Part shown: in pieces, positions 241 through 39,729 of the stretch
How positions within the stretch are numbered: position 1 is the first letter of the stretch
How the letters are laid out: each line of letters begins with the position of its first letter
Source: Thalassospira lucentensis
GTDB taxonomy: Bacteria; Pseudomonadota; Alphaproteobacteria; Rhodospirillales; Thalassospiraceae
Length of the DNA stretch: 64,000 nt
Reading direction: 5' to 3'
Assembly: GCF_011806425.1 (NCBI RefSeq)
Contig: NZ_JAATOV010000008.1
Span: 1 to 64,000 of the forward strand
Position numbers and translations under genes: made by a program
The notes under the pieces: model-generated
What the model saw: the letters and a program-made list of their open reading frames with translations, nothing else
Told to the model about the DNA's origin: nothing
Database searches by the model: none

Positions 241-476
241 TTTCTTTGCTTGCGTGGCATCGAATTTCTTTCTCTTCTAAGAGAACGCTGGCACGGTTGA
301 ATGACGGTGTTTTTGTTTGATTTAGATGGTCATACGGAACGGGTTTGATTGTCCACGCAGATGTTGTCGGTATATGTGATGGCGTTGTCTTGACTTTATG
401 AGGCCGACGCAGTGCAATGAAGAAATGCGAACCGCAATGGTTCGGCCTTTATCATTTTGTCTGGGAAATACTTAAT

Positions 477-905
477 ATGGGTCAGTACCCCACCTGCATC
501 CATTCCGTGATTTCAAACAATCCAAAAGATTTGAACCAATTTTTGGAAACACTCGGAAGTCGGCTTGAAGAGATCGAGTTGGAGCTTGTCGTTGCGACAC
601 GTGTGCAGGTTTGCCTTGATGAAATGCTGTCAAATGCGATCAAGTATGGCTATCCACCCGAAAAAACAGGTCAGATCGAGGTTTCTATTACCTATGAGAC
701 CGATGAAATCGTCGTTTCTGTGACAGATGACGGGGTGCCATTTGATCCGTTTACCCGTGATGACCTTGATAGCCTGGATCTTGATATTGAAGATCGGGAA
801 ATTGGCGGTCTAGGAATACATATCGTCAAAAACATGGCCAGTCGCGTTGACCATCAGCGACAAACTAACCGTAATATCAATCGGTTCTGGATTCCCCTGT
901 CATAA
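477..905 (+). CDS. HATPase anti-sigma factor / serine kinase (RsbW/BtrW-like)
   Basis: A 142-residue single-domain GHKL ATPase of the RsbW/SpoIIAB type. Such proteins bind a sigma factor and phosphorylate a STAS antagonist. The N box (DEMLSNAIKYGY, residues 48-59) holds the expected Glu and Asn, the G1 box is TDDGVPFD (83-90) and the G2 box is GGLGI (110-114). I start at 477 because families of this type begin just before the first beta strand. An in-frame ATG at 417 would add 20 aromatic residues and cannot be excluded. The gene converges on the PP2C phosphatase gene, and its partners STAS and sigma lie at 36.4-37.4 kb. The T3SS context matches Bordetella BtrW; the role is inferred. Confidence 0.85.
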   Translation: MGQYPTCIHSVISNNPKDLNQFLETLGSRLEEIELELVVATRVQVCLDEMLSNAIKYGYPPEKTGQIEVSITYETDEIVVSVTDDGVPFDPFTRDDLDSLDLDIEDREIGGLGIHIVKNMASRVDHQRQTNRNINRFWIPLS

Positions 906-924
906 ACTGCTGGATGGCAAACGG

Positions 925-950
925 GAACGCACCTCCAAATAGGGGCGTTC
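925..950. terminator. Possible hairpin between convergent genes
   Basis: GAACGC and GCGTTC arms enclose a further 3-bp stem after one mismatch. It sits in the 90-base gap between the convergent kinase and phosphatase genes. No T run follows, so terminator function is only suggested by position. Confidence 0.3.
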
Positions 951-994
951 GCCGGTTTGCGCAGTGCTATGGGTATTTGGGGGCGCGTATTTGG

Positions 995-3088
995 TCAGCC
1001 CTGCTGAGGTTTCCGATACTCAAACGTCACACAGGTAATGTCATCAGCCTGTGGCGCGCCATCGGCAAATGTTTTGACCGTCGATACAACGTTTTCCTGA
1101 AGGCTTGAGACGTCCTTAAACGCGCTGGACAATGTCGCTTCCAGACGGTCTGTACCAAATTCTTCTTGTTTTGGATTAGTGGCTTCGTTCACCCCGTCGG
1201 TGAACAGGAAGACGCGATCGCCACTTTTAATGTCAAAGCTTGCATTTGAGTAGGGCATTGCATCCATAACGCCAAGGGCCATGTCACCTGTTCCGGGAAT
1301 TGGAGAGCAGGTGGACGAACCGGATGGCAGATGATAGGGCGGATTGTGACCGGCATTGCAATATGTGAAGGTGCCCGAGGTAAGGTGCAAAATACCATAG
1401 AACATCGTTACGAAGAGTTCCTCGCTATTGTTCTGGCACAGAGCATCATTTAAAGCTGCGATGCAGTCGGACGGGTTGGCAAAGCGTGGTGCAATCGCGC
1501 GCATAATCGAACGCGCAATGGCCATGAAGAGTGCAGCTGGAACACCTTTGCCCGATACATCTGCAACAACAACAGCGAGCCTGTCATCATCGAGATAGAA
1601 GAAGTCATAGAAATCACCCCCAACATCTTTTGCCGGCACCATTAATCCTGAGATGCTGAGACGTTCACTGGGCGGCAATTGTTCGGGCAACATGGCAAGT
1701 TGGACACGCCCGGCGATATCGAGTTCCTGTTGAAGCGAAAGATAGGCTGTCTTTGATTTAAGCGCGTCTTCCAGTTCGGAAATCGTTGATTGCAACGTAC
1801 CATGCTGCTGGTGAATGCGTTCCTTCAGGCTGGTTAATGTCAGGGTAACAACGGCAAGTTCGCTTGCAGCTTTAACATCCTCATTCTCGGTGAGGGCTGT
1901 ATCGGCATTTAGACGTTCTTCAATGCGGTGCAAATCGCCCAGAATTTGGTCTCTTGCCTCGGTATCAAGCGTTTCGGCAAGTTGTGTCATTTGCTCGCGA
2001 ATGACCTGCGCCTGACGCTGGCTTCGATTGCGACGTGAACGTGTCATACGGTCCAAGCGCATCAAATCATTACGAAGCTTTACGATTGCATTGGAAATTT
2101 CGGCAACTTCGTCGTTGCTGTTGGGTTGCTCAAGATGTTTGGAAAAGTCACCTTCTGAAACGCCAGAAAGGACGCCAATAACGCCTTCAAGCGGACTAAG
2201 CGAGCGACGAATATAAAACCATAACCCAAGTGCAGAACAGATTAGGAAGCTGATCGCGCCGGCAAAGATGATTTGTTCAAAACGTGCAAAGCTATGGAAG
2301 CTCTTGCTGATATCCTGGGCACTGACCACATAGCCGACCTGATCAGAAAACCCGTAAACAGGGTTGCTTGTAACGCCAAACATTTGATTTCCAAGGGCGA
2401 TACGTTCTTCTGCCGAGGTGCTAAATTCAACTTTGTCGCGGATGTCTTGCCAAAGCGCCTCGTCCTGTCCGGTAAGATAGCGGCCGCGGCGATTGATTAG
2501 AAACGTCTTGCTTTTTTGCAGCTCGGATAACTCATCAAGCAATCGTTCAATACGAACAGCAACGACCACAACGGGACTTTTTTCCGCGTCAGTCAACAGA
2601 GGGACTGCGAAGGCGATGAATGTCTGACGGTTACTTGTTGCGGATGCACCAGAAAACCTTTTGCGAACTCCAGTTTCCAAAAAGAATAGCTGGTCCTTGT
2701 TAATCAGTGGACTGGGGAAATAGCTTGCCTCGGACGTATATGCGAGCTGCCCGTCATATTGATAAATCTCGATCCGGTCGAAGTAGTTGTTTTCAGTAAT
2801 GGCACCGCGGGCAATTTTACGTGCGGCAGTATGGATAGCTTTTGTATCTTGTTTTTCAAGGGCATCAATCAGGTCCTTGTCTTCACGCAAAAGCCAGATT
2901 TTATCGGTAAGTGACAGAATTGCACCGTCGACAATTTTGCTCCAGAGGCTACCTTGCTGATGGGCGGCTGATCTGCCAAATTCAACCTGAAGCAGATTTT
3001 CGCGATAGCTGAATGCCCAAAATAGGCCGCATGCGACAATTAGCAGGCTTACACATGAAAAGACGCTTAGACGGTTCCGCAGCAGCAT
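995..3088 (-). CDS. Membrane PP2C/SpoIIE phosphatase (RsbU/BtrU-like)
   Basis: 697 residues. Membrane segments at about 10-26 and 272-293 flank a large periplasmic sensor region. A HAMP domain (about 293-345), a long coiled coil (about 345-465) and a C-terminal SpoIIE-type PP2C phosphatase domain follow. The metal-binding motifs are intact: DVGGDFYDF, VADVSGKGVPAALFMA, CNAGHNPP, LFTDGVNEA and DDITCV. Family knowledge: such enzymes dephosphorylate a STAS anti-anti-sigma factor and so free sigma from its HATPase inhibitor. It is the last gene of a five-gene minus-strand operon, and its start abuts the stop of the MFS fusion gene. The periplasmic domain presumably senses the signal. Confidence 0.9.
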   Translation of the reverse strand: MLLRNRLSVFSCVSLLIVACGLFWAFSYRENLLQVEFGRSAAHQQGSLWSKIVDGAILSLTDKIWLLREDKDLIDALEKQDTKAIHTAARKIARGAITENNYFDRIEIYQYDGQLAYTSEASYFPSPLINKDQLFFLETGVRKRFSGASATSNRQTFIAFAVPLLTDAEKSPVVVVAVRIERLLDELSELQKSKTFLINRRGRYLTGQDEALWQDIRDKVEFSTSAEERIALGNQMFGVTSNPVYGFSDQVGYVVSAQDISKSFHSFARFEQIIFAGAISFLICSALGLWFYIRRSLSPLEGVIGVLSGVSEGDFSKHLEQPNSNDEVAEISNAIVKLRNDLMRLDRMTRSRRNRSQRQAQVIREQMTQLAETLDTEARDQILGDLHRIEERLNADTALTENEDVKAASELAVVTLTLTSLKERIHQQHGTLQSTISELEDALKSKTAYLSLQQELDIAGRVQLAMLPEQLPPSERLSISGLMVPAKDVGGDFYDFFYLDDDRLAVVVADVSGKGVPAALFMAIARSIMRAIAPRFANPSDCIAALNDALCQNNSEELFVTMFYGILHLTSGTFTYCNAGHNPPYHLPSGSSTCSPIPGTGDMALGVMDAMPYSNASFDIKSGDRVFLFTDGVNEATNPKQEEFGTDRLEATLSSAFKDVSSLQENVVSTVKTFADGAPQADDITCVTFEYRKPQQG

Positions 3089-5166
3089 TATTTGCCTCCC
3101 ATCTCAGCGAGGGTGTTTCTGAGGACGGTTGGGCCTGCAATGATCCAGAACCCGACCGCGCCAAGCAACCCAATGGCGCCTATAACCACAACAGCAGTCT
3201 GCGCACCGTAGATGGTCGCAAGGCTGCCTGCGATAAGTGGTCCAACCACATTTCCAAGTCGTTCGACAAACCTAAATAGGCTTAAGCCCTCAGCTGGGGT
3301 GGTTTCGGTCTGACTGTTTAGAATGATGTTTTGAACCAGTGCCAGTTGGGGTGAAATGCTTAGGGCCTGTCCCAAACCGATTAGGCCAACCACACCGACA
3401 ATCGCCCATACGCCATCCCAAACCGAGAGGCTAATGGCACCAAGGCCGGCCAGAACCCCACCCAAAATGACAAAGAATGCATGCTGATGACGTCTGTCGG
3501 CAATTTGTGATGCTTGAGGCATCAAAACGACAACCGCAATGCCATACATCATCACCACACGGCCGATGGCGGAATCGCCGGTATCCAATCCCGACAGATA
3601 GATCGGAACGAGCAGGAAAATCACGCCGGTTAGCATGATCTTTGATGGAATGGCGCATAAAACGGTCAATGCGGTAAAGCGCATATTTCCCAATAGCGAG
3701 AAGTTTGGCAAAGCTGGAATTCTACGGCGTCGTGTACGGCTGGCTTTTGGTGGAGCGATGTGGTTATCAAGGGTGGATCCCAAGAGGAATCCTGACGTTA
3801 AAGCCAGTCCGGCTGACACCAGGAAGGTGGATGCATATCCAATTCGATCGGCTAAAATACCACCGATTGCCGGCCCACAAATCCCTGCAACAAGAATAGC
3901 GCCAACAAAAATCGCCATGTTGGTTGCGCGGTTTTCTGGTTCTGAACGTGCGGCAACGTAGCTTTGGCAGGCGACAAATATGAACCCGTACCCAAGTGCT
4001 GACAGCATCCGAGATGTGACAAAAAGGGTGAAATCGGTCGATATATAACTTCCGACATAGCCCGCGACCGCTGGTATCAGACCAATCAGGAACATTTTTC
4101 GCGACCCAATCCGGTCTGCAATTGGTGCAGTTAACAGCGATACGGCGGCGAGAACCGCCATAAAGGCCATGATCGGAAGACCGGCAGCAAAATCAGGTAC
4201 GTCTTGCAATGAGACTGGCAGTCCAAGTTTTTTGACATAGACCGGCAAGAACGCGCGTGAGAGTTCCTCGGCGAACATGAACAGGAAAAGTGGCAACCGA
4301 AGAGATCGAATATTGCTGGCTTCACGTTCCCGGAATTCGAACGGATTGGCAAATTCGAATTTCGTGCGAATGGTTTGAATTGCCTGATCAATACGTTTGG
4401 TCTTTTCGGGGGCAATTTGGGCTGCGCGCAATTCGCTGGAATCATCAAAAAACAGCCGTGCACGCACTGCTATCAGATACAACACTTTGTTCAGGATGCT
4501 TTCAACCCGGGTAAGCTCTGCCGTTGCGGAAGCATGTACCGAATGCGAAAAACGTCCGATAGCGCCGTCTTTAAGGACGCTCACCACCGATTGTAAAGGA
4601 TTGAGCAAACGCCCATAAATCAAAAATGCCAAGAGTTCGTACGTGACAAGCATGGTGATCAGAAGTGTCGTTAAAACCTCGTAGGTTACTTCTTCGCGCT
4701 GACGGCTGATATGGTCCGGGTTTAGGGCGATTTCTATGCGGGCGACGGTAGCGCCTTTAAAGCGGATGTCTTGAGAAACACCCGGTGCATCAGAGTCAAA
4801 CTGCCCCGCGTTGTAGGTGAAGTTTGGCTGAACATCTTCCGCAGGGGAGATTATTCGAATGGCCGCGATATCTGAGTTCTCAGCCAATATATTTGACAAA
4901 TATTCCTCAACACCAACCAGCTTGCGCGGTTCAATTCCGACGGAAACGGCACGTTCGATATCTCTGCTGATGTTGCTGGCAACAAGTTCGGCCTTGTTTT
5001 GGAATTCCGGTACGAGGCGTGCCTCGAATGTTGTCAAAGCCCGGTAAGAGAATGTCGCAAGCGTCAGGCAAAGCAGACCAAGTGAGCCAACCAGAAGCCA
5101 AATAAGCAACTGCGATTTATAACGCGCAAGATCGGTGGTTTTTGACGACAGAGTAGGCTTGCTCAT
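3088..5166 (-). CDS. MFS transporter fused to an N-terminal sensor/HAMP-like module
   Basis: 692 residues. The N-terminus resembles a signalling protein: a membrane helix (about 19-40), a periplasmic region of about 125 residues, a second helix (about 165-186) and a HAMP-like linker (about 186-235). A complete 12-helix major facilitator domain follows (about 288-685), with the usual loop motif ADRIGSRK between helices 2 and 3. Ordinary MFS carriers are about 400 residues, so the first 290 are extra. The start overlaps the preceding stop by 4 bases, indicating translational coupling. It may act as a transporter-type receptor feeding the PP2C phosphatase; the substrate is unknown. Confidence 0.8.
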   Translation of the reverse strand: MSKPTLSSKTTDLARYKSQLLIWLLVGSLGLLCLTLATFSYRALTTFEARLVPEFQNKAELVASNISRDIERAVSVGIEPRKLVGVEEYLSNILAENSDIAAIRIISPAEDVQPNFTYNAGQFDSDAPGVSQDIRFKGATVARIEIALNPDHISRQREEVTYEVLTTLLITMLVTYELLAFLIYGRLLNPLQSVVSVLKDGAIGRFSHSVHASATAELTRVESILNKVLYLIAVRARLFFDDSSELRAAQIAPEKTKRIDQAIQTIRTKFEFANPFEFREREASNIRSLRLPLFLFMFAEELSRAFLPVYVKKLGLPVSLQDVPDFAAGLPIMAFMAVLAAVSLLTAPIADRIGSRKMFLIGLIPAVAGYVGSYISTDFTLFVTSRMLSALGYGFIFVACQSYVAARSEPENRATNMAIFVGAILVAGICGPAIGGILADRIGYASTFLVSAGLALTSGFLLGSTLDNHIAPPKASRTRRRRIPALPNFSLLGNMRFTALTVLCAIPSKIMLTGVIFLLVPIYLSGLDTGDSAIGRVVMMYGIAVVVLMPQASQIADRRHQHAFFVILGGVLAGLGAISLSVWDGVWAIVGVVGLIGLGQALSISPQLALVQNIILNSQTETTPAEGLSLFRFVERLGNVVGPLIAGSLATIYGAQTAVVVIGAIGLLGAVGFWIIAGPTVLRNTLAEMGGK

Positions 5167-10232: not shown

Positions 10233-10502
10233 TCAGCTTGTCAGATGCGGAAAATCGGTAAAGATGCTTAGGGCGAAGCGATATAATTCCCCGCCAATCC
10301 ACGTTGCTGTCATAAAAATAACAATTCCAACGGCAGCGAGTTTGAAGCCAAAGGAAAGTGTCTGTTCCTGCACCTGTGTTAGCGCCTGCAGAAGGCTGAC
10401 AAGTGTGCCAACAACGGCCGCTGCGATAATGGGGGGTAATGACAACATCAATGTCAAAACCAGTGCACGGGTTAGAAAACTAATAATGTCGCCTTCGAAC
10501 AT
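10233..10502 (-). CDS. sctS: T3SS export apparatus protein SctS
   Basis: 89 residues with two membrane helices, the standard size of the FliQ/YscS family. The segment LPPIIAAAVVGTLVSLLQAL and the following QEQTLSFGFKL are characteristic. It is the smallest component of the SctRST gate. Position and size leave little doubt. Confidence 0.96.
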   Translation of the reverse strand: MFEGDIISFLTRALVLTLMLSLPPIIAAAVVGTLVSLLQALTQVQEQTLSFGFKLAAVGIVIFMTATWIGGELYRFALSIFTDFPHLTS

Positions 10503-20423: not shown

Positions 20424-21038
20424 TCAACGCATGTTGCCGACGACTGAGTCGAGTGTCTTTTGAACTTTCTGCAACAGGTTCGATAGCGTATCGAAGGCTT
20501 CGTTGCGTTTGTTCATCAGGCTCTGCATACGGATCATGTCGAGCTGGCCGGTTGAATTCAGGCTGTCAATTTTGCCCTTGATGTCATTGACCCAAGTATC
20601 GATGGTATTCTGACGCGCATCGAACTTCCCCGTGCCAGGCATACTCAAGCGGGCTTTATCCTTGCTGTCGGTATTAACGTTCGGATAGCCTTTCAGCTCA
20701 TCTAAACTGCCGTCCTTGGGCAACTGGATATCGATATTAACGCCGGCTTTTGCGAGCTGCATAACCATCTCGGTGGCTTGCTTTTCTGTCGCACCAAGGT
20801 CTGCCCATTTATCGGGGTTGTCACCAGATGGGCGCACCGCACGCAAAGAGCTCAGCAGGTCGTTGAGTTGACTTACCTGTTGGTTGCGAGACTGAATTTC
20901 CTTGATCTGGTCAGCCATCTGACTTTCAAGATTTTCGGCCCGTTGGGCCTGCACAAGCATCATCATTTCTTCGATGCCAAGGCCCTGTTCAAGGCCTGAT
21001 ACGCTGCTGGCGCCATTCACACCAATGCCATCAATCAT
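20424..21038 (-). CDS. SctA/Bsp22-like filament or tip protein, copy 1
   Basis: 204 residues, mostly helical. A conserved N-terminal helix (IEEMMMLVQAQRAENLE) and a C-terminal coiled coil ending GNMR flank a variable middle (about 65-145). I recall similar ends in Bordetella Bsp22, which polymerises on the needle tip; EspA/SseB proteins have analogous long terminal helices. The gene precedes the translocator chaperone and translocators, as bsp22 does in Bordetella. The neighbour at 21068 is a close paralogue. Role as tip filament is inferred from synteny and shape. Confidence 0.7.
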   Translation of the reverse strand: MIDGIGVNGASSVSGLEQGLGIEEMMMLVQAQRAENLESQMADQIKEIQSRNQQVSQLNDLLSSLRAVRPSGDNPDKWADLGATEKQATEMVMQLAKAGVNIDIQLPKDGSLDELKGYPNVNTDSKDKARLSMPGTGKFDARQNTIDTWVNDIKGKIDSLNSTGQLDMIRMQSLMNKRNEAFDTLSNLLQKVQKTLDSVVGNMR

Positions 21039-21067: not shown

Positions 21068-21571
21068 CTAGCGCATGTTGCCGACGATTGAATCGAGCGT
21101 CTTCTGAACTTTTTGCAGCAGGTTCGATAATGTATCGAAGGCTTCGTTGCGTTTGTTCATCAGGCTCTGCATGCGGATCATATCGAGTTGGCCGGTTGAA
21201 TTCAGGCTGTCAATTTTGCCCTTGATATCATTGATATAAGTATCAATCGTTTTTTGATCGATTTCGGTCGCCTTCTTGTCCGCGCCTGTAACCCCGGCAT
21301 CAGCAAGAGCGCTAGCGGTGCTCATAGCGTAGGTGGCCTTTTTATCCGGGTTGTCCCCCGAAGGTCGATCCGCACGTAAAGAACTTAGCAAGTTGTTGAG
21401 CTGACCTACCTGCTCGTTGCGAGACTGAATTTCCTTGATCTGGTCAGCCATCTGCTTTTCGAGATTGTCGGCCCGTTGGGCCTGCACAAGCATCATCATC
21501 TCTTCGATGCCCATACCAGGCTCAAACCCCTGAACGCCGGCGGCGGCGTTTGTTCCGTTCACGGTTGTCAT
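21068..21571 (-). CDS. SctA/Bsp22-like filament or tip protein, copy 2
   Basis: About 167 residues. Its first 60 or so and last 55 residues are nearly identical to the neighbour at 20424; in the C-terminal block only one Val/Ile difference is visible. The middle segment is unrelated and shorter. I start at the second of two adjacent ATGs, six bases after AGGAG. Being first of the pair it may be made in larger amount. Whether both subunits share one filament is unknown. Confidence 0.7.
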   Translation of the reverse strand: MTTVNGTNAAAGVQGFEPGMGIEEMMMLVQAQRADNLEKQMADQIKEIQSRNEQVGQLNNLLSSLRADRPSGDNPDKKATYAMSTASALADAGVTGADKKATEIDQKTIDTYINDIKGKIDSLNSTGQLDMIRMQSLMNKRNEAFDTLSNLLQKVQKTLDSIVGNMR

Positions 21572-21651
21572 CATAAGCTCCTGCGAAAATCGACTAACTG
21601 GGAGTGCCAATAATTGTTTGTTTGCCTGCGTTCCGATAACCCGCGTGGGTC

Positions 21652-21951
21652 TCAGATCATGCGGCGCATGCGTTTCATTGATGTACCCGCTTTGGCATTT
21701 ACTTGCCCCAAGCTCTGCCGGGCTGCGTTGACTTCTTTCTCGATCTCTTCAAGATCGGCAGCCACAGCTTCTTGACCTTTGGAACGCCCGTCACTTGGCA
21801 TGTTTGCGAAGGCCTTCGTCATCGTTTCGCGGCTGACACCACTTTTTTCCAGAAGCGCATCGGTTTCTGCGATCGCACTTTCTGCCTGAGAGCAAATCTC
21901 TTCGAGTTGCTTAACGATTTCCAGTGCCTGTACTTCTGGTTCAACAGACAT
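21652..21951 (-). CDS. Small helical protein at the head of the main T3SS operon
   Basis: 99 residues, predicted wholly alpha-helical with Glu-rich and Ala-rich stretches (KQLEEICSQAESAIAETDAL) and a basic tail (KRMRRMI). No signal peptide or membrane helix is present. It is the first gene after the ECF-type box at 22038-22065 and precedes the two filament candidates, so it could be their chaperone, as CesA/CesAB is for EspA, or a secreted helical subunit. Not recognised by family. Confidence 0.6.
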   Translation of the reverse strand: MSVEPEVQALEIVKQLEEICSQAESAIAETDALLEKSGVSRETMTKAFANMPSDGRSKGQEAVAADLEEIEKEVNAARQSLGQVNAKAGTSMKRMRRMI

Positions 21952-27491: not shown

Positions 27492-28073
27492 TTATTCTTT
27501 TGATTCAGTCGAAACAAACTGTCGAATTATCTCTGATGATTTCGCAATCAACAAAGCAGCGTCTGTGATTTCGTTCGCAGGGACATGAGAGTCATGTTTG
27601 AGAAGTTCGTGTAGTCGGTGATCTAGTTCTTCACGTTGATCAAGGTTCAGTGCTTGCGGATCAACCTGTGCCAAGCCGCATGCTGCGACATAACCATCAC
27701 CATTACCGACCGCATTCAAGAAACTGGTGGTGACAAATGATCTATGCATGATTGGATCGGCTTCAAGGGATACCTGCGTAATTACTTTGTCCGATAGTGG
27801 GGCAGCCGCGTTTGAAGATTCCACATGACCGTTCATCTGGGAAAATTCCTGATGTAATTTGGAGATCTTTGATCTCTCGACGGAATCACAGCGGCTGAGC
27901 ACAGTGTCATCCGACCCAAGCATGGCTTGCGTGACAACGCGAACCGACAAACCGCCCATGTGACCGGCTTGGGACGGGGTTTGGGCATCCGCTTTGTCTG
28001 CGCGTGCGGGTCCAATGCTCTCTTGGCTAGAGATGCTTTTTATTGGCGTATTATTGTTATTAATACCGGTCAT
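27492..28073 (-). CDS. Candidate T3SS-secreted protein
   Basis: 193 residues. The first 40 are rich in Asn, Ser, Ile, Gln and Thr and look disordered, as T3SS signals do. The remainder is helical with short motifs repeated nowhere else in the window. It lies after a CesT-type chaperone gene, a common effector arrangement, and has its own weaker ECF-type box at 28131-28159. No catalytic motif is recognised. Effector status is inference. Confidence 0.6.
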   Translation of the reverse strand: MTGINNNNTPIKSISSQESIGPARADKADAQTPSQAGHMGGLSVRVVTQAMLGSDDTVLSRCDSVERSKISKLHQEFSQMNGHVESSNAAAPLSDKVITQVSLEADPIMHRSFVTTSFLNAVGNGDGYVAACGLAQVDPQALNLDQREELDHRLHELLKHDSHVPANEITDAALLIAKSSEIIRQFVSTESKE

Positions 28074-31010: not shown

Positions 31011-32456
31011 GTGCAGTTTGTCGTTCTGTTTGGGCCTCAGGCTGGGGCGCATGTCACGTTATATTCCGGCTCATATGTTGTTGGGTCAGGCGAGGACGAA
31101 GATGTCGTCGTTATGGGGCGGGGCGTGGCAGAGGCGCATTTTCGATTTGAACTGGATGCTGAAACCGGGCAGCTGACAGTCGGCGCGTGTTCAAGCGATG
31201 TTTTTGCCGAGGGTGCGCGTTCGCTCGCGCCCGGTGATCAGATCAATTTACCACAAAAATTCTGGCTGAGTGACGTTGTCATCGGCATCGGTGATCTTGA
31301 AACGCGTTGGGATGAGCCACAATTTGCGCAGTCGCCTCATGCTGCAAACGCTAAAATGTCGCAAACAGTGTCCTCGTCGGCTGAGGGGGATCAAGTGATA
31401 TCGTCAGCGCCGAAGAATGCTGACAGCAAAGATAGCCTTACGGGTTCGTCACGCCAGGTTGTTGCGCATGATGGCGATGATGCCGCAAATGCAGATAGCT
31501 TTGCGTCCGTCGCGGGGGAGCATCCAATAGCTGAGGCGTCTTCGCCAACCCGGACATGGAAGCCAGGTTTTGTTATTCCGATTTCGATCGTGGCTGTTGC
31601 TGTTATCATTGGTTTGTTGACGGTTCTGTTCGTTGATGATGAACAAACATCAGTCATGCCAGGCCCCAGCGCCGGGGTGGTTGAAGCGGAAAAACAGTTC
31701 GGCGAAATTGAGGGGCTTTTGACCGGCATTGCGGATGTGAGTGATGTTAAGGCAAGCTTGGTCAATGGTGAGGTAAATGTCACCGGTTACGCACCGACAC
31801 CTCAGACGATTAAAATGATTTCAGACGCCGTTTTAAGTGTCGCGCCGGACGCGCAGATCAATGTCATTGCCGATAGCGATCTTGAGCAAAAGGCCGCCAG
31901 CATTCTCGCGCGCCGTGATGCTAAGGTGAATAAGGTTGAGGATGGGGTTGTCTATGTCGAAGGTGTTGTGTCTGATCCCGGTGCGCGCGAGCAGTTGGTC
32001 GCCTTTGCGCAGGAGGAGTTGACTGATGCTGCCGCCATTGATGCGGAAAAAGTTTACGAAATTCGGGAACTGATCGACGTTTTTGGTGACCAATTAAAGC
32101 AGCAGGGGCTTTCTCGGATTTCTTTGCGCAGTTTGCGCGATGAAATTATTGTCTCCGGGCGCTTGCGTTGGGCGCAGCTTGGGGCTTGGGAAAGTCTTCT
32201 GTCAAAGTGGACTGCTGAATATGGACTAAAATTTCGGGATGCGAGCCCGCTCGTTTTGGACGGGGACGACATGCCATTTGAACTGGTGGCGGCAGTCGGG
32301 GGCGAAAATGGTTTTCTGTTTTTGTCAGGACAGAACAAGGTGCATGTGGGTGGGGAAGTGGCCCCCGGCTATATCTTGAAGTCTGTTGCCGATGGTGCCT
32401 TGGTGATTACCCATGCCGCCAGAGATTACATGATTGATATCAGAGAGGCAGAATGA
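31011..32456 (+). CDS. sctD: T3SS inner-membrane ring protein SctD
   Basis: 481 residues from a GTG start with AGGA upstream. A cytoplasmic FHA-like domain (about 1-100), a linker rich in Ser and Ala, one membrane helix (about 185-208) and a long periplasmic part with repeated BON-like ring domains (DVKASLVNGEVNVTGYAPTP and following) match YscD/PrgH. It forms the outer part of the inner membrane ring around SctJ. Confidence 0.94.
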   Translation: MQFVVLFGPQAGAHVTLYSGSYVVGSGEDEDVVVMGRGVAEAHFRFELDAETGQLTVGACSSDVFAEGARSLAPGDQINLPQKFWLSDVVIGIGDLETRWDEPQFAQSPHAANAKMSQTVSSSAEGDQVISSAPKNADSKDSLTGSSRQVVAHDGDDAANADSFASVAGEHPIAEASSPTRTWKPGFVIPISIVAVAVIIGLLTVLFVDDEQTSVMPGPSAGVVEAEKQFGEIEGLLTGIADVSDVKASLVNGEVNVTGYAPTPQTIKMISDAVLSVAPDAQINVIADSDLEQKAASILARRDAKVNKVEDGVVYVEGVVSDPGAREQLVAFAQEELTDAAAIDAEKVYEIRELIDVFGDQLKQQGLSRISLRSLRDEIIVSGRLRWAQLGAWESLLSKWTAEYGLKFRDASPLVLDGDDMPFELVAAVGGENGFLFLSGQNKVHVGGEVAPGYILKSVADGALVITHAARDYMIDIREAE

Positions 32457-32689
32457 ACGAGCAAGCGCCAAAACATGTTCTGGATATCGAAGAAAAGCTT
32501 TCGGGTGATGACCGTGCCGCGAATGCGGATAGTTATTGCGCGCGGCTTGAAGCCGCTGCCCAGCAAGTCAAGCGAGATCTAGACAAGGGGGTTGCGCCCG
32601 ATCAGTACCGTATTCTGTCACGATTGCTTGAATCCTATGAGGCCGCGCAAAAAGTTGTGCGCATTGTCTCTGGCACCGCACAAAAGTAA
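32453..32689 (+). CDS. YscE/EscE/SsaE-like needle co-chaperone
   Basis: 78 residues, two predicted antiparallel helices with the charged, coiled-coil character of YscE-type proteins (RLEAAAQQVKRDLDKG and YRILSRLLESYEAAQKV). It overlaps the sctD stop by 4 bases and lies directly before the needle gene, as yscE does in Yersinia. With a YscG-like partner it would keep SctF from polymerising in the cytoplasm. Confidence 0.8.
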   Translation: MNEQAPKHVLDIEEKLSGDDRAANADSYCARLEAAAQQVKRDLDKGVAPDQYRILSRLLESYEAAQKVVRIVSGTAQK

Positions 32690-32732: not shown

Positions 32733-32753
32733 GGCACATTAAACTGATGTGCC
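32733..32753 (+). promoter_or_regulatory. Hairpin upstream of the needle gene
   Basis: GGCACAT and ATGTGCC arms with a 7-base loop lie about 24 bases before the sctF start; a weaker GCCCA hairpin precedes it. It may stabilise or process the needle mRNA, which must be translated in excess. No T run follows, so it is not a simple terminator. Confidence 0.35.
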
Positions 32754-32776
32754 CCATTAAAGAACGGATGATTGCT

Positions 32777-33001
32777 ATGTCGTTGAACTTTAGCTCTGTG
32801 GGTCAGTCGCTTGGCCAGAATATGAAAGCCACCGAGAGCGATTTCGAAAACTTCATGCAAAACATGGATTCTTCGGATCCCAGCCAGATGATCCAAATGC
32901 AGCAAAAAATGCAGGAATGGACCCTTTCGGTTCAAATGCAAACTACGACCATCAAGTCGCTTGGCGACGCATTGCATGGCGTTGTGCAGAAGATGGGCTG
33001 A
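32777..33001 (+). CDS. sctF: T3SS needle subunit SctF
   Basis: 74 residues, two helices joined by a short turn containing DSSDPSQ, the P-(S/D)-(N/D)-P-like bend of the YscF/PrgI/MxiH family. The C-terminal helix ends QKMG. I start at the third in-frame ATG (MSLNFSSV...), which gives the family's usual length; earlier ATGs at 32747 and 32768 would add 10 or 3 residues. It polymerises into the extracellular needle. Confidence 0.93.
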   Translation: MSLNFSSVGQSLGQNMKATESDFENFMQNMDSSDPSQMIQMQQKMQEWTLSVQMQTTTIKSLGDALHGVVQKMG

Positions 33002-33022: not shown

Positions 33023-33874
33023 ATGACTGCAAGACGGCAATCGGTCGTGCTGGCCGCCGATCGACATGCATTTTTGCCTTCGGACGATGGCATTGATGAG
33101 ACCGGCGAAGCAGATATCTTGTCTGCGCTCATGTCTGCGAACGCCGCCCTGTCCAGCAGCGCTGTCACAAAAGACCTTAAAACGGTTGATCAGTTGTCGG
33201 GCCTTTTACGCAACGTTATTGCAAATCACTTTGGCTCGTACCTTTATCGTGCCTCTGTCACGTCGCATGATGGGGGACAGTTTGCACATTTTGCCTCTCG
33301 TGAAGACCTGGTTAAACAGGAGCAGGCCAACTGCGCGATCTGGCTTGCTTTGACGGTTCTTGACGGCGAAGCGCATCGTGTTGCCCTAGCGAAAGATCTG
33401 AAATGGTCTTTTGGGGCGCTCGCATCACGGTTTTGTCCCAATCCTCCGACAGTGAACCAAGTCCTGGCGTGCAGAAACTTGCCGCTTAGCAATGATTTGG
33501 CGAAGATGTATGGATTGGCTCAGCAGATATACGGTGACCTCGGAGTGCGTGCGGGAGATATTCCTTCCGACAAGGCACTTGTCGCGCCAGATGCTACGTG
33601 CCGGGCAATGCTATCGGCGTGTTTCCCGACCTACATCCGTGAATTCAATGGCTTTGTGACCCTTCCTAGCGCGCGCTTAGAGGCCCTTGATACCTTGCCG
33701 CGTAAGCCTGAAATGCGGTCATTTATATCGAAATTCCTTTCGCGGTCTTTGCTGCTCGTAGCCACGATCAGCGTTTTCGTCCTGATCGGTTTTGTGTTGG
33801 GCTGGATGTATCAGGGGCAGCTTATCCTTGCGTCTGCGGGACAGTCCTTCTTTGCGACAGGGATCAGCGCGTGA
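33023..33874 (+). CDS. DotU/TssL-like C-tail-anchored membrane protein
   Basis: 283 residues. A cytoplasmic helical domain (about 25-225) contains CAIWLALTVLDGEAHRVALA, comparable with the conserved helix of TssL, and AKMYGLAQQIYGDLG, comparable with the LYLCLALGF region. A single membrane helix (about 238-260) near the C-terminus leaves a short periplasmic tail, the TssL/DotU topology. It is translationally coupled (ATGAGC, 4-base overlap) to the IcmF/TssM-like gene. TssL and TssM normally form the type VI or IVB membrane complex. Finding them after sctF is unusual. The family call is by eye and moderate. Confidence 0.6.
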   Translation: MTARRQSVVLAADRHAFLPSDDGIDETGEADILSALMSANAALSSSAVTKDLKTVDQLSGLLRNVIANHFGSYLYRASVTSHDGGQFAHFASREDLVKQEQANCAIWLALTVLDGEAHRVALAKDLKWSFGALASRFCPNPPTVNQVLACRNLPLSNDLAKMYGLAQQIYGDLGVRAGDIPSDKALVAPDATCRAMLSACFPTYIREFNGFVTLPSARLEALDTLPRKPEMRSFISKFLSRSLLLVATISVFVLIGFVLGWMYQGQLILASAGQSFFATGISA

Positions 33875-36309
33875 GCAAGTGGTTCTTTCATTTCTGCCCA
33901 GGTGTCAGTCGCCGTCAGATCATGCGTGATCTGGAAGATCGTGGTGCGCCGAGTTGGTTTGTTGCCGATCAGATCCTGCGACGCGCCGGAACCACCAAAA
34001 AGGCGAGAAAGTACCGCGGTCTTGTGATTGTACTTCCGACCGATGGTTTGCGCGCTGCAGATTATATTTCCCAGCTTGGGGCACGTGTTCATAAACTGGC
34101 AGCCTCCTTTGAGGCCATTGGGCGCCCAATTATTCTGCTGCTATGTGGGCGTGGTGACCGCGAAGTCGCAGATTGCCTGCGCGGCGGTGGCGTTTTGCCA
34201 TCCGGAACAAATGTCATTGGCTGGCTGGGATCGAGTGTTACCAGCGGGATTAAGGCGCTTGCATTAACCAGCAATCATAAGGCCGGAGTATCCGAGTCTT
34301 CATCGCTATATCTTTGTGGACCCGATAACATATCCAATCAGGATGACGCGCCACCCCGCGACGTAATTGTAGGGTGCCAATCTGTCTTTCGAGGGCTGGA
34401 GTTTCTGCTTGAAACGGCTAAGCCTGCTTGGCAGGCGTCTGGTGTTTTCATGACTGGCGATGTTGCTCTTGGTGCTGTCGCGCCTGGACGTTTGGTGCGA
34501 CTTCATCAGGAACTTGAACATTTTGCAGGGCCGTATCGCCACGTTCCGCGTGATAGTGGTTTTAAAACCCGCCATCTGGTTGTGGCATCTGCATTCCTTG
34601 CATTGGCCTGCGGCGGCGTTTTGGCGTGGAAGCATGGGGCAGCTTTGCGCGGCGAAACATCCCGTCCTGCCCGGGCCGATGACATTGATCATCTATGGTC
34701 GTTGGTGGCGAGCTTGGCTGCGACACCGGGAAGTGATTTGATTTCAGTTGTTCCAGGTACTCCATTTGAAGATCTGAACGCCCGGATTAGCAATTTGACA
34801 GATCGGGTTTTGTTGACGCCTGCACGCGATGCGCTTGAATTACGGTTGGAAAGGGTCGAGAAAGGTGCCCTGACAGCAACATCGGACGTGGTGGTCGCGC
34901 GTGCTGTGAAATTACTGGCGGATGTAAGCCTCTTTTCTGCCGGTCCGGTGCTGCGCGATAAACCTGCGGCTTTTTCTGATGATGGTGAAGTTGAGCCGAA
35001 CCGCAGTTGGTGGTCCTTACTGGCGGAGAACGGAGTAATTGACCATTCACTACTTTCGAGCGTTTCTCCCCTTCTTTCGGAGATCGTGGGCAAAAGGCCG
35101 ATCAGTCCACCTGAATGGCAGAACGAGTTTGTCGTACGTATTCGCACTTTGCTCGAAACTGTGGTTGGTTATCATTGGGGGATTGGCCGGGGGCCAGAAA
35201 TTGTTTCAGCAGGGCAGTTGTTTAATAATTTGGGTCTGCAGATTTCGACAAGTCCCGATGACGTTACGCATGAAAATATCCGTGATTTAATTACAGCCTA
35301 TGCGACAGTTGAAGATAGCCGCAGGCAACTGAGTATGCTGTCCGAAGATGCTAAAAAGCCTGATGAACTTTTTGCAATGTTAGATGGTACGCCGCTCATT
35401 GGCCAAAATTGGCTGTATGGTTTGCGCCTTAAGGCTAGCCTTGAGCTTGAAGCGGCACTCAATCAGGTTGATCTTTCATCTACTTGGGCTAGGGGCTCGG
35501 ACGGTTTTGGATTGGCGGGCGATTATGGAGATGGTCGTCGTGCCGTTGCGCCATTGATATCGTTGAACGAAGACCGGTTGGGGCGCGACATTTTGGCGCA
35601 CATTGGCATGAATGTCGTGACACCGACGAGCTCAGGTTTGCCTGGTCTTGATGGCCTTGATGATGCGTTAGAACTTGCAAAATATTTTAAGGCTGTGCGT
35701 TCACAGCTAGAAATCAGCGAACACTCGCTATCGGGTGTTCTTGAAAATGCCGCATATGCCGCAATCACGGATCATCTGTTTGGTTCGGACATGGTGCCAC
35801 GGCAAATTAAGCCGGACGACTACAGGCACTATTTTTCAAGCGCGATGAGATTGCGCGATATGACACGTTCATATTCAGCAGATATTGCCGAAGATTATCA
35901 GTGGGCGCTGATTGTTACGGTAATGCACGAGCTCGAGCATGTTGACCAAAAAGGGCAGAATTTAATGCGGAGCATTGAGCTGCCCCACTCGACTGCGTTA
36001 GATGATGGCCCACAGCAATCGGTTGCGTCTGAAGACATGGCCAATGCAGCGCGTGGGATTGATAAACTCGCCCTTGCAGCAAAGCCTTTGTTGTCTGTAA
36101 TTGCGCAACTTGATCGGCAAGGTGAGCTTGCCAATTCCCCGGTTGTGCTGCGTTGGAAAGATGCTGTTCCTATGGGGGATGTCATGGCGCGATCTAACGG
36201 CGATGAGCATCTCGGCATGTGCGCAGTCTTTGGCGCGAACCGGTCATTGGCGATGAATTTGGCCAATGAAAAACTTAAAATGCAAATGGCGGAAGAAGCA
36301 TGTCCGTAG
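33871..36309 (+). CDS. IcmF/TssM-like protein, N-terminally short, in the T3SS operon
   Basis: 812 residues. The segment YRGLVIVLPTDGL, then LGARVHKLAASFEAIGRPII and a following LLLCGRGD, parallels the TssM stretch of the form GVLVTLSVADLL...LGIRFPVYVLVTKTD, with NVIGWLG in place of QVWG. One membrane helix (about 236-255) then leads to a large periplasmic helical region. Standard TssM is 1,100-1,200 residues with two earlier membrane helices and often a Walker A motif; both are missing here. The upstream TssL-like gene and 4-base overlap support a complex. It may brace the injectisome envelope ring. Function is inferred. Confidence 0.6.
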   Translation: MSKWFFHFCPGVSRRQIMRDLEDRGAPSWFVADQILRRAGTTKKARKYRGLVIVLPTDGLRAADYISQLGARVHKLAASFEAIGRPIILLLCGRGDREVADCLRGGGVLPSGTNVIGWLGSSVTSGIKALALTSNHKAGVSESSSLYLCGPDNISNQDDAPPRDVIVGCQSVFRGLEFLLETAKPAWQASGVFMTGDVALGAVAPGRLVRLHQELEHFAGPYRHVPRDSGFKTRHLVVASAFLALACGGVLAWKHGAALRGETSRPARADDIDHLWSLVASLAATPGSDLISVVPGTPFEDLNARISNLTDRVLLTPARDALELRLERVEKGALTATSDVVVARAVKLLADVSLFSAGPVLRDKPAAFSDDGEVEPNRSWWSLLAENGVIDHSLLSSVSPLLSEIVGKRPISPPEWQNEFVVRIRTLLETVVGYHWGIGRGPEIVSAGQLFNNLGLQISTSPDDVTHENIRDLITAYATVEDSRRQLSMLSEDAKKPDELFAMLDGTPLIGQNWLYGLRLKASLELEAALNQVDLSSTWARGSDGFGLAGDYGDGRRAVAPLISLNEDRLGRDILAHIGMNVVTPTSSGLPGLDGLDDALELAKYFKAVRSQLEISEHSLSGVLENAAYAAITDHLFGSDMVPRQIKPDDYRHYFSSAMRLRDMTRSYSADIAEDYQWALIVTVMHELEHVDQKGQNLMRSIELPHSTALDDGPQQSVASEDMANAARGIDKLALAAKPLLSVIAQLDRQGELANSPVVLRWKDAVPMGDVMARSNGDEHLGMCAVFGANRSLAMNLANEKLKMQMAEEACP

Positions 36310-36380: not shown

Positions 36381-36716
36381 ATGGCTGTTGAAAACAAGTC
36401 CGACGGTGACATTCAAATCATTGTCATGACCGGGCGCCTGGACAGCTCATCTGCGGGTGAGGCGGAAAGCAACGTAAAAAGAGTACTTGATCTGGGCGCC
36501 ACCAAGCTTTTGGTTGATATGTCTGATTTGGCATATATTTCGAGCGCCGGGCTACGCGTGGTGCTGATTGCCGCCAAGAGCTTGCATAAAGCCGGTGGAG
36601 CTATGGCGATTTGCGGCATGTCGCCGTCGGTGCGTGAAGTGTTCGAAATGACAGGCTTTTTGAAAATACTTCAAGTTTTCGATACAGAGACTGAAGCAAA
36701 GGCCGCACTTGCGTAA
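36381..36716 (+). CDS. STAS-domain anti-anti-sigma factor (SpoIIAA/BtrV-like)
   Basis: 111 residues, a single STAS domain. The segment LLVDMSDLAYISSAGLRVVL contains the conserved DxSxxxxISSAGL motif whose serine (about residue 57) is phosphorylated by the HATPase kinase and dephosphorylated by the PP2C enzyme. AAGGAG precedes the ATG. The gene lies 71 bases after the TssM-like gene, probably in the same transcript, and converges on the sigma factor gene. In Bordetella the equivalent BtrV controls the Bsc T3SS. Confidence 0.92.
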   Translation: MAVENKSDGDIQIIVMTGRLDSSSAGEAESNVKRVLDLGATKLLVDMSDLAYISSAGLRVVLIAAKSLHKAGGAMAICGMSPSVREVFEMTGFLKILQVFDTETEAKAALA

Positions 36717-39237: not shown

Positions 39238-39729
39238 CTAATCGCCTTTGTCATTGAGAGCTGCAAAATCCTCTGCATCGAAGCCCCGGCGTAGTTCCAT
39301 TCTTGCGTCATCACTCAAAGATTCACTAAAGCGCATTTGTGGGGCTTCTTGTTCTTCGAGCGCGGCAAAATCATCTCCATCGAAGCCACCGCGGACCGCT
39401 GTTCTAACGTCATCGCGCAGGGAGTTCAGTTCTTTGGTGGAGAACAGTTTTGTGGACTTCGCGCTGTCCAAGTTACTTGTCGATATTTTGTTGTTTAGCG
39501 CCGCAAGACCGGCTTCGCCCATTTCCTGTTGAACCTGCGCCTTGAGGTTTGTGAGCTGCTGCGTATGCGCGGCTCCAGCTTGGCCCGTGAGGTGTAAAAA
39601 GGCTCTTTTCATAATGCCGACACCGCGCGCGATGATACCGTCATTTTGGTCGCCGGTATTGTGAGCCGGTTCGTTCATCACCTGCAGCAGATTACTGCTC
39701 GAGTTTGAGCCGTTAATAGAGCCTACCAT
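39238..39729 (-). CDS. Candidate T3SS-secreted protein with a duplicated motif
   Basis: 163 residues. The N-terminus is rich in Ser, Asn and Gly (MVGSINGSNSSSNLL), like a T3SS signal. The C-terminal 60 residues contain two copies of a pattern D-D-x-R-x3-R-x-G-F-D-x2-D-F-A-A-L (about 106-125 and 141-159). A strong site, AGAGGAGAG, precedes the ATG, and a weak ECF-type box lies upstream at 39790-39818. No known domain is recognised. It may be an effector or regulator of the island. Confidence 0.6.
   Translation of the reverse strand: MVGSINGSNSSSNLLQVMNEPAHNTGDQNDGIIARGVGIMKRAFLHLTGQAGAAHTQQLTNLKAQVQQEMGEAGLAALNNKISTSNLDSAKSTKLFSTKELNSLRDDVRTAVRGGFDGDDFAALEEQEAPQMRFSESLSDDARMELRRGFDAEDFAALNDKGD

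Follow-up and report, generated by a model that had tools for sequence, protein, structure and literature searches.

A probable TssM/IcmF-related protein and its tail-anchored neighbour in a type III secretion gene cluster of Thalassospira

We analysed a pair of overlapping genes in a 64,000-nucleotide stretch of Thalassospira lucentensis DNA (the window; contig NZ_JAATOV010000008.1), in which open reading frames (ORFs) at 33023-33874 and 33871-36309 lie directly behind sctD-sctE-sctF in a Bordetella-type injectisome cluster, i.e., that of a type III secretion system (T3SS). The large protein of this pair is probably a TssM/IcmF-related protein of a T3SS, with a similarity to TssM above that of controls. 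Proteins of the TssM/IcmF type are known from type VI (T6SS) and type IVB (T4BSS) secretion systems. The small protein would most likely take the place of TssL/DotU as the inner-membrane partner of the large protein. We hold it somewhat probable that a TssM/IcmF-derived envelope protein and a TssL-like partner now act as an injectisome accessory, namely, as a brace or positioning factor.

The cluster is located on contig C11 of a Thalassospira-like genome (G000), which was compared with a second Thalassospira genome (G007; metagenome-assembled genome of Thalassospira sp. isolate SP131, contig NZ_PAQR01000007). The initial annotation of the window had described a C-tail-anchored protein and, overlapping it by 4 bases, a large protein with one membrane helix; the ORFs and the Kyte-Doolittle profiles agree with this description and with the coordinates given there. 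The overlap reads GTGA and comprises the stop of the small gene and the GTG start of the large gene. The features of the pair are as follows (aa, amino acids).

33023..33874, +, small partner ("TssL-like"), 283 aa, helical, C-tail anchored (ORF; membrane helix; AlphaFold2; G007 ortholog)
33749..33805, +, membrane helix of the small partner, aa 243-261 (Kyte-Doolittle)
33871..36309, +, large protein, TssM/IcmF-related, 812 aa (profile-profile match to TssM; G007 ortholog)
33871..34287, +, N-terminal alpha/beta domain, aa 1-139, small-GTPase-like fold at low confidence (predicted structure)
33895..33918, +, probable degenerate P-loop, aa 9-16, CPGVSRRQ (G007: CPGVDRKT) (one global N-domain alignment only)
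34441..34461, +, GVFMTGD motif, aa 191-197, corresponding to TssM GVYFTSG/GIYFTGD before membrane helix 3 (profile alignments)
34573..34629, +, single membrane helix of the large protein, aa 235-253, corresponding to TssM helix 3 (Kyte-Doolittle; alignment)
34630..36306, +, predicted periplasmic part of the large protein, about 559 aa, helical (AlphaFold2, low confidence)

Similarity of the large protein to TssM

TssM and TssL alignments were built from T6SS-type loci of other genomes and compared by hhalign with two-sequence alignments of the large and of the small protein. The first results for the large protein against TssM were promising and unstable. Two of the first 30 TssM rows (L082 and L083) are sequences that we take, from the alignment, to be ClpV, and their removal left 28 rows; before it, none of 400 shuffles reached the score of the query. 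The earlier TssM comparisons include these two rows, except for those with a 14-row alphaproteobacterial profile, and the main test was redone with the clean set. When the first 620 residues of the clean 28-row profile were compared with residues 1-340 of the query, we observed a score of 40.9 (Prob 60%), while the best of 24 shuffles reached 24.0. The query also scored above the same 24 shuffles with every one of 13 random subsets of 18 TssM sequences. In a decoy test with 39 ORF pairs common to G007, a set that includes the two studied here and a few antisense ORFs, only SctN scored similarly, through its real P-loop, and the next score was 24.9.

The firmest similarity covers residues 184-339 of the large protein. 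Here, GVFMTGD (GVFLTGD in G007) is found at the place of the G-[VIFL]-Y-[FL]-T-[SG] type motif that precedes membrane helix 3 of TssM and is present in 16 of the 28 TssM rows. GVFMTGD was inside every one of 14 profile alignments, 12 of which extended past the membrane helix, the other two comprising 12 and 23 columns. The initial annotation had instead drawn the parallel between the first 130 residues and the post-Walker part of TssM. This placement was not upheld, the start of the protein probably corresponding to the Walker-A strand.

The single clear membrane helix of the large protein (Kyte-Doolittle) leaves TssM membrane helices 1 and 2 without a counterpart. In one global alignment, WFFHF-CPGVSR of the large protein was placed over the TssM Walker-A strand PWYL-GPPGSGKT; this alignment was made only with the profile that still contained the two ClpV rows. 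Walker A (GxxxxGK[ST]) occurs in 25 of the 28 TssM rows, and the large protein carries CPGVSRRQ, or CPGVDRKT in G007, at the aligned place. Since the protein starts at the Walker-A strand in this alignment, it seems to carry a degenerate P-loop rather than an intact Walker A. Of the features first reported as lacking, helices 1 and 2 and an intact Walker A are indeed absent, while a degenerate P-loop is apparently there.

TssJ, the partner of TssM at its C-terminal end, is an outer-membrane lipoprotein. A passage of PMC3213119 describes TssM of enteroaggregative Escherichia coli as having a helical stretch at 386-930 followed by a beta domain at 931-1129, with the C-terminal domain binding TssJ. 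For the large protein, we observed a weak 44-column match of aa 723-766 to the TssM segment before this domain (IcmF_C), with a score of 29.8, a maximum of 25.6 in 25 shuffles and a Prob of 2%. The protein ends 46 residues after this match, and the beta domain is thus most likely missing. Fittingly, Pfam gave no match to IcmF_C, and the AlphaFold2 model shows helices there, at low confidence.

Taken as a whole, the large protein resembles TssM/IcmF in the order of a putative P-loop-like domain, a GxYFTSG-type motif, membrane helix 3 and a long, predicted helical periplasmic part, and its gene directly follows that of a small tail-anchored protein. It differs in the absence of helices 1 and 2, in an apparently degenerate P-loop, in the lack of a visible C-terminal beta domain and of a Pfam match, and in the location of its gene in a T3SS operon. 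Because it fails several defining features of TssM, we did not file it as TssM.

The small protein and the conservation of the pair

The membrane helix of the small protein has basic residues on its N-terminal side, and the AlphaFold2 model is helical with a mean predicted local distance difference test (pLDDT) score of 60.4. Pfam, NCBIfam, PADLOC and PHROGs were empty for this protein except for one PHROGs match (E 0.033) without an assigned function. Scoring with a position-specific matrix of the TssL core motif ranked the small protein 16th of 268 and its G007 ortholog 107th of 268, which is not significant. By eye, AIWLALTVLDGEA...W of the small protein resembles the TssL core YALCATLDEAV...W; this candidate was rejected, as the matrix gave it no support. 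Fold searches returned generic helical bundles, and the absence of TssL structures among the matches listed is no evidence against a relationship. The small protein is like TssL/DotU in having a helical cytoplasmic part, a single C-terminal membrane helix and a gene just before a TssM-like one; on the other side, no sequence or fold match to TssL/DotU was found, and the TssL core motif is not significant. The TssL relationship first proposed for it thus found no support in sequence or fold search and is left with position, tail anchor and helical content in its favour.

Both genes have full-length, intact orthologs in G007, with 43% identity for the small and 47% for the large protein (44% by BLAST for the latter). 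The order SctE-SctF-small-large-STAS-sigma is the same in G000 and G007, and the order of the T3SS cluster is also kept, indicating that the two ORFs are real genes. Identity between the two genomes amounts to 90% for SctV and 58% for SctD, compared to which the pair is fast evolving, yet intact.

Co-occurrence with a T3SS in relatives, which the initial annotation proposed to survey, was seen for the large protein: of 29 Thalassospira genomes, it was found in two (G000 itself and G007), both with this T3SS. Full-length SctC of this kind is found in the same two genomes of the 29, and partial SctC matches of 25-29% identity occur in G021, in G006 and at a second place in G007. At an E value better than 0.01, the large protein was matched in 2 of 100 genomes of relatives, 2 of 317 of the order, 1 of 337 of the class and 1 of 398 of the phylum; these samples are overlapping draws, and the genomes matched were G000 in every case and G007 in those draws that contained it. 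Four phylum-level matches (E 0.03-0.09) over short stretches of 36 to 65 positions of the model were discounted as chance.

Nine other alphaproteobacterial genomes encode an SctV that is 46-64% identical (E 1e-140 or better). In their 16 regions, some of which end at contig edges, the large protein was unmatched at E up to 5, and the best match of the small protein (E 0.044) was in an ORF of 92 aa. Alphaproteobacteria with genomes of 1.5-2.2 Mb, SctV 53-64% identical and other T3SS genes nearby are G423, G546, G490, G369, G513, G487 and G399; the large protein was found in 0 of 1 and 0 of 2 genomes of the families of G423 and G546, respectively. Searching four plasmid T3SS loci with the pair gave best E values of 0.49 and 0.38, and tblastn of plasmids with the small protein, the large protein and SctD gave no match. 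A single-sequence scan of contigs was empty, and a scan with two poor peptide patterns recovered the known G007 ortholog only, so that these scans are no proof of absence elsewhere. The rarity of the large protein outside the two genomes rests on limited samples and is likewise not proof.

Proposed role of the pair and alternatives

As we picture it, the large protein would be a TssM/IcmF relative that has diverged far and become shorter. It would keep a cytoplasmic P-loop-type domain whose nucleotide binding is probably lost (a pseudo-NTPase), the GVFxTGD motif, the third membrane helix and, in the periplasm, a helical part some 559 residues long, and it would have lost membrane helices 1 and 2 and the TssJ-binding C-terminal beta domain. 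With the small tail-anchored helical protein as its most likely inner-membrane partner, in the place of TssL/DotU, it might form an inner-membrane ring or struts around the injectisome base. Such a complex may have a part in seeding, positioning or stabilising the SctD/SctC rings, by analogy with DotU and IcmF, which passages of PMC7029142 describe as polarly localised, as stabilising Dot/Icm and as enhancing its polar assembly. That the P-loop and the TssJ-binding domain are apparently lost would favour a structural over an energy-driven role and would speak against a connection with a lipoprotein of the outer membrane. Complex formation and a function as brace or positioning factor would follow by analogy with these known modules. 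The role of envelope brace or sensor put forward by the initial annotation is likewise an inference.

Several observations weigh against descent from TssM/TssL. A full-length 28-row TssM profile gave a score of 32.8, which was reached by 1 of 400 shuffles, and a full-length profile of 16 mostly classical rows, none of them taken from the 14-row alphaproteobacterial profile and two of them ClpV, found nothing. The margin was small in 2 of 14 profile tests (22.8 versus 22.3 and 25.2 versus 23.6), and the strict motif is missing from 12 of the 28 TssM rows. Pfam, NCBIfam, PADLOC and PHROGs recognise neither protein as TssM or TssL, with no match of any kind for the large protein, and the small protein gave no TssL profile signal above shuffles in hhalign and no match to PF09850. 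For the large protein, pLDDT averages 40.7 over the model and drops below 36 just beyond residue 110, and the best Foldseek match (E 0.15) came among mixed alpha/beta folds including TIR and flavodoxin. Moreover, neither the large protein nor its G007 ortholog matched any Pfam family, even at E values of up to 10. In phmmer searches against the PDB, matches were at chance level only (best E 0.25). The TssM relationship put forward by the initial annotation is backed by profile scores above shuffles and decoys, with weak backing also from the fold of residues 1-139, and the four family collections are silent on it.

The missing matches to curated hidden Markov models, the low fold confidence, the insignificant and mixed Foldseek results and the instability with full-length profiles would all suit two fast-evolving, T3SS-specific envelope proteins without common descent with TssM/TssL, in which a convergent layout is combined with a generic P-loop-like or Rossmann-like domain. 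We regard this as unlikely: all 14 of 14 profile versions follow one diagonal, anchored by the TssM motif that adjoins the membrane helix, and the weak second match (29.8 versus 25.6) is collinear far downstream. Even if the large protein is TssM derived, the small protein might be a membrane-anchored stand-in for the missing SctG/Orf1-type needle chaperone and pair with SctE. The table of PMC7498569 gives the Bordetella order BscD-BscE-BscF-Orf1, with Orf1, in the row after BscF, listed as a T3SS chaperone and no TssM-like gene among the rows considered; in Thalassospira, the small and large genes occupy the place of Orf1. In N. vulgaris, a TPR protein comes after sctF, the ORF list holds no other likely gene between sctF and the pair, and the small protein lacks a TssL signal. 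However, a tail-anchored protein of 283 aa is unlike the short, soluble SctG of about 115 aa, and the 4-base overlap with the large gene suggests a joint unit, so that we give this explanation a low probability as well. Decay of a T6SS, leaving a remnant by chance in a T3SS operon, could account for the shortening of the large protein relative to TssM at both ends and for the apparent loss of the P-loop. It is highly improbable, given that both frames are intact and in the same order in two species differing at over half of the positions. Nor does the genome hold another T6SS trace for three marker families: no match to PF06761, PF14331 or PF09850 was found in G000 (sheath, Hcp and TssJ families were not searched), which bears out for these families the initial remark that T6SS genes other than the pair are absent. 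A PF06761 T6SS-type protein occurs in 4 of the 29 genus genomes, with neither G000 nor G007 among them.

Returning to the injectisome accessory, we tentatively raise the possibility that an injectisome took over a TssL-TssM/DotU-IcmF module, without NTPase and outer-membrane link, as a new structural or positioning layer of a T3SS, which would be the third class of machine with this module, after T6SS and T4BSS. A TssM/IcmF relative tied to an injectisome would, if true, mean that this envelope module serves a third, unrelated export machine. It would also represent a minimal module, apparently without NTPase and TssJ contact, for the core role of seeding, positioning or bracing a trans-envelope complex. 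The presence of a TssM-like protein in an injectisome cluster suggests that parts are borrowed between machines. Among the open-licence papers listed in literature searches, none dealt with a pair of this type in a T3SS.

Gene order and other features of the cluster

The placement of the pair after sctD, a YscE-like gene and sctF, as first annotated, is in agreement with family matches (TIGR02501 besides PF08988 for sctE). The neighbouring genes are as follows.

31011..32456, +, sctD (TIGR02500 E 7e-22, 77.9 bits, cut-off 86; PF16697 above cut-off)
32453..32689, +, sctE, YscE-like (PF08988; TIGR02501 E 1e-9)
32747..33001, +, sctF needle subunit (PF09392 E 7.5e-19)
36381..36716, +, STAS (BtrV-like) gene, downstream of the large gene (PF01740)
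10233-10502, SctS, assigned by position only

The minus strand of the cluster carries SctU, T, R, Q and P; SctN, L, J and I; SctO and K; the translocon; and a SycD-like chaperone, as well as SctC. On the plus strand, we found SctW, a SycN-like gene, SctX, a SctY-like gene and SctV, and further SctD-SctE-SctF. The core set of a Ysc/Bordetella-type injectisome is complete, with SctS counted by position only; the matches for SctD, SctY, SycN, Btc22 and BspR are below the NCBI cut-offs. By comparison with PMC7498569, as far as its table goes, the cluster is like Bordetella bsc/btr in the orders Btc22-SctW-SycN-like-SctX-SctY-SctV and SctD-E-F and in its BtrS/BtrV/BtrW/BtrU/BspR-type regulators. 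It differs from Bordetella in that SctV and SctD are separated by SctC and chaperones.

The regulators of this btr kind are an RsbW-like kinase, a SpoIIE phosphatase beside an MFS gene, a STAS protein, an extracytoplasmic function (ECF) sigma factor and a BspR-like anti-sigma factor. At 417-5166, the RsbW-like kinase, SpoIIE phosphatase and MFS genes are arranged like Bordetella BtrW, BtrU and BtrO. The ORF at 26856-27479 matches the BspR anti-sigma family (E 5e-21, below cut-off) and is adjoined by a weak second match to this family at 27492-28073 (minus strand; E 1.1e-4), possibly forming a paralog pair. Tandem paralogs at 20424-21038 and 21068-21610 (minus strand) are nearly identical in their C-terminal 50 residues, with family matches at chance level only, and lie beside a Btc22-family chaperone at 21652-21951 (minus strand; E 2e-8, below cut-off); this arrangement is consistent with two copies of a Bsp22-like needle-tip filament protein. 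Immediately beyond the T3SS genes, 39238-39729 (minus strand) encodes a 163-aa protein with an internal repeat and no family match, which is a possible secreted substrate.
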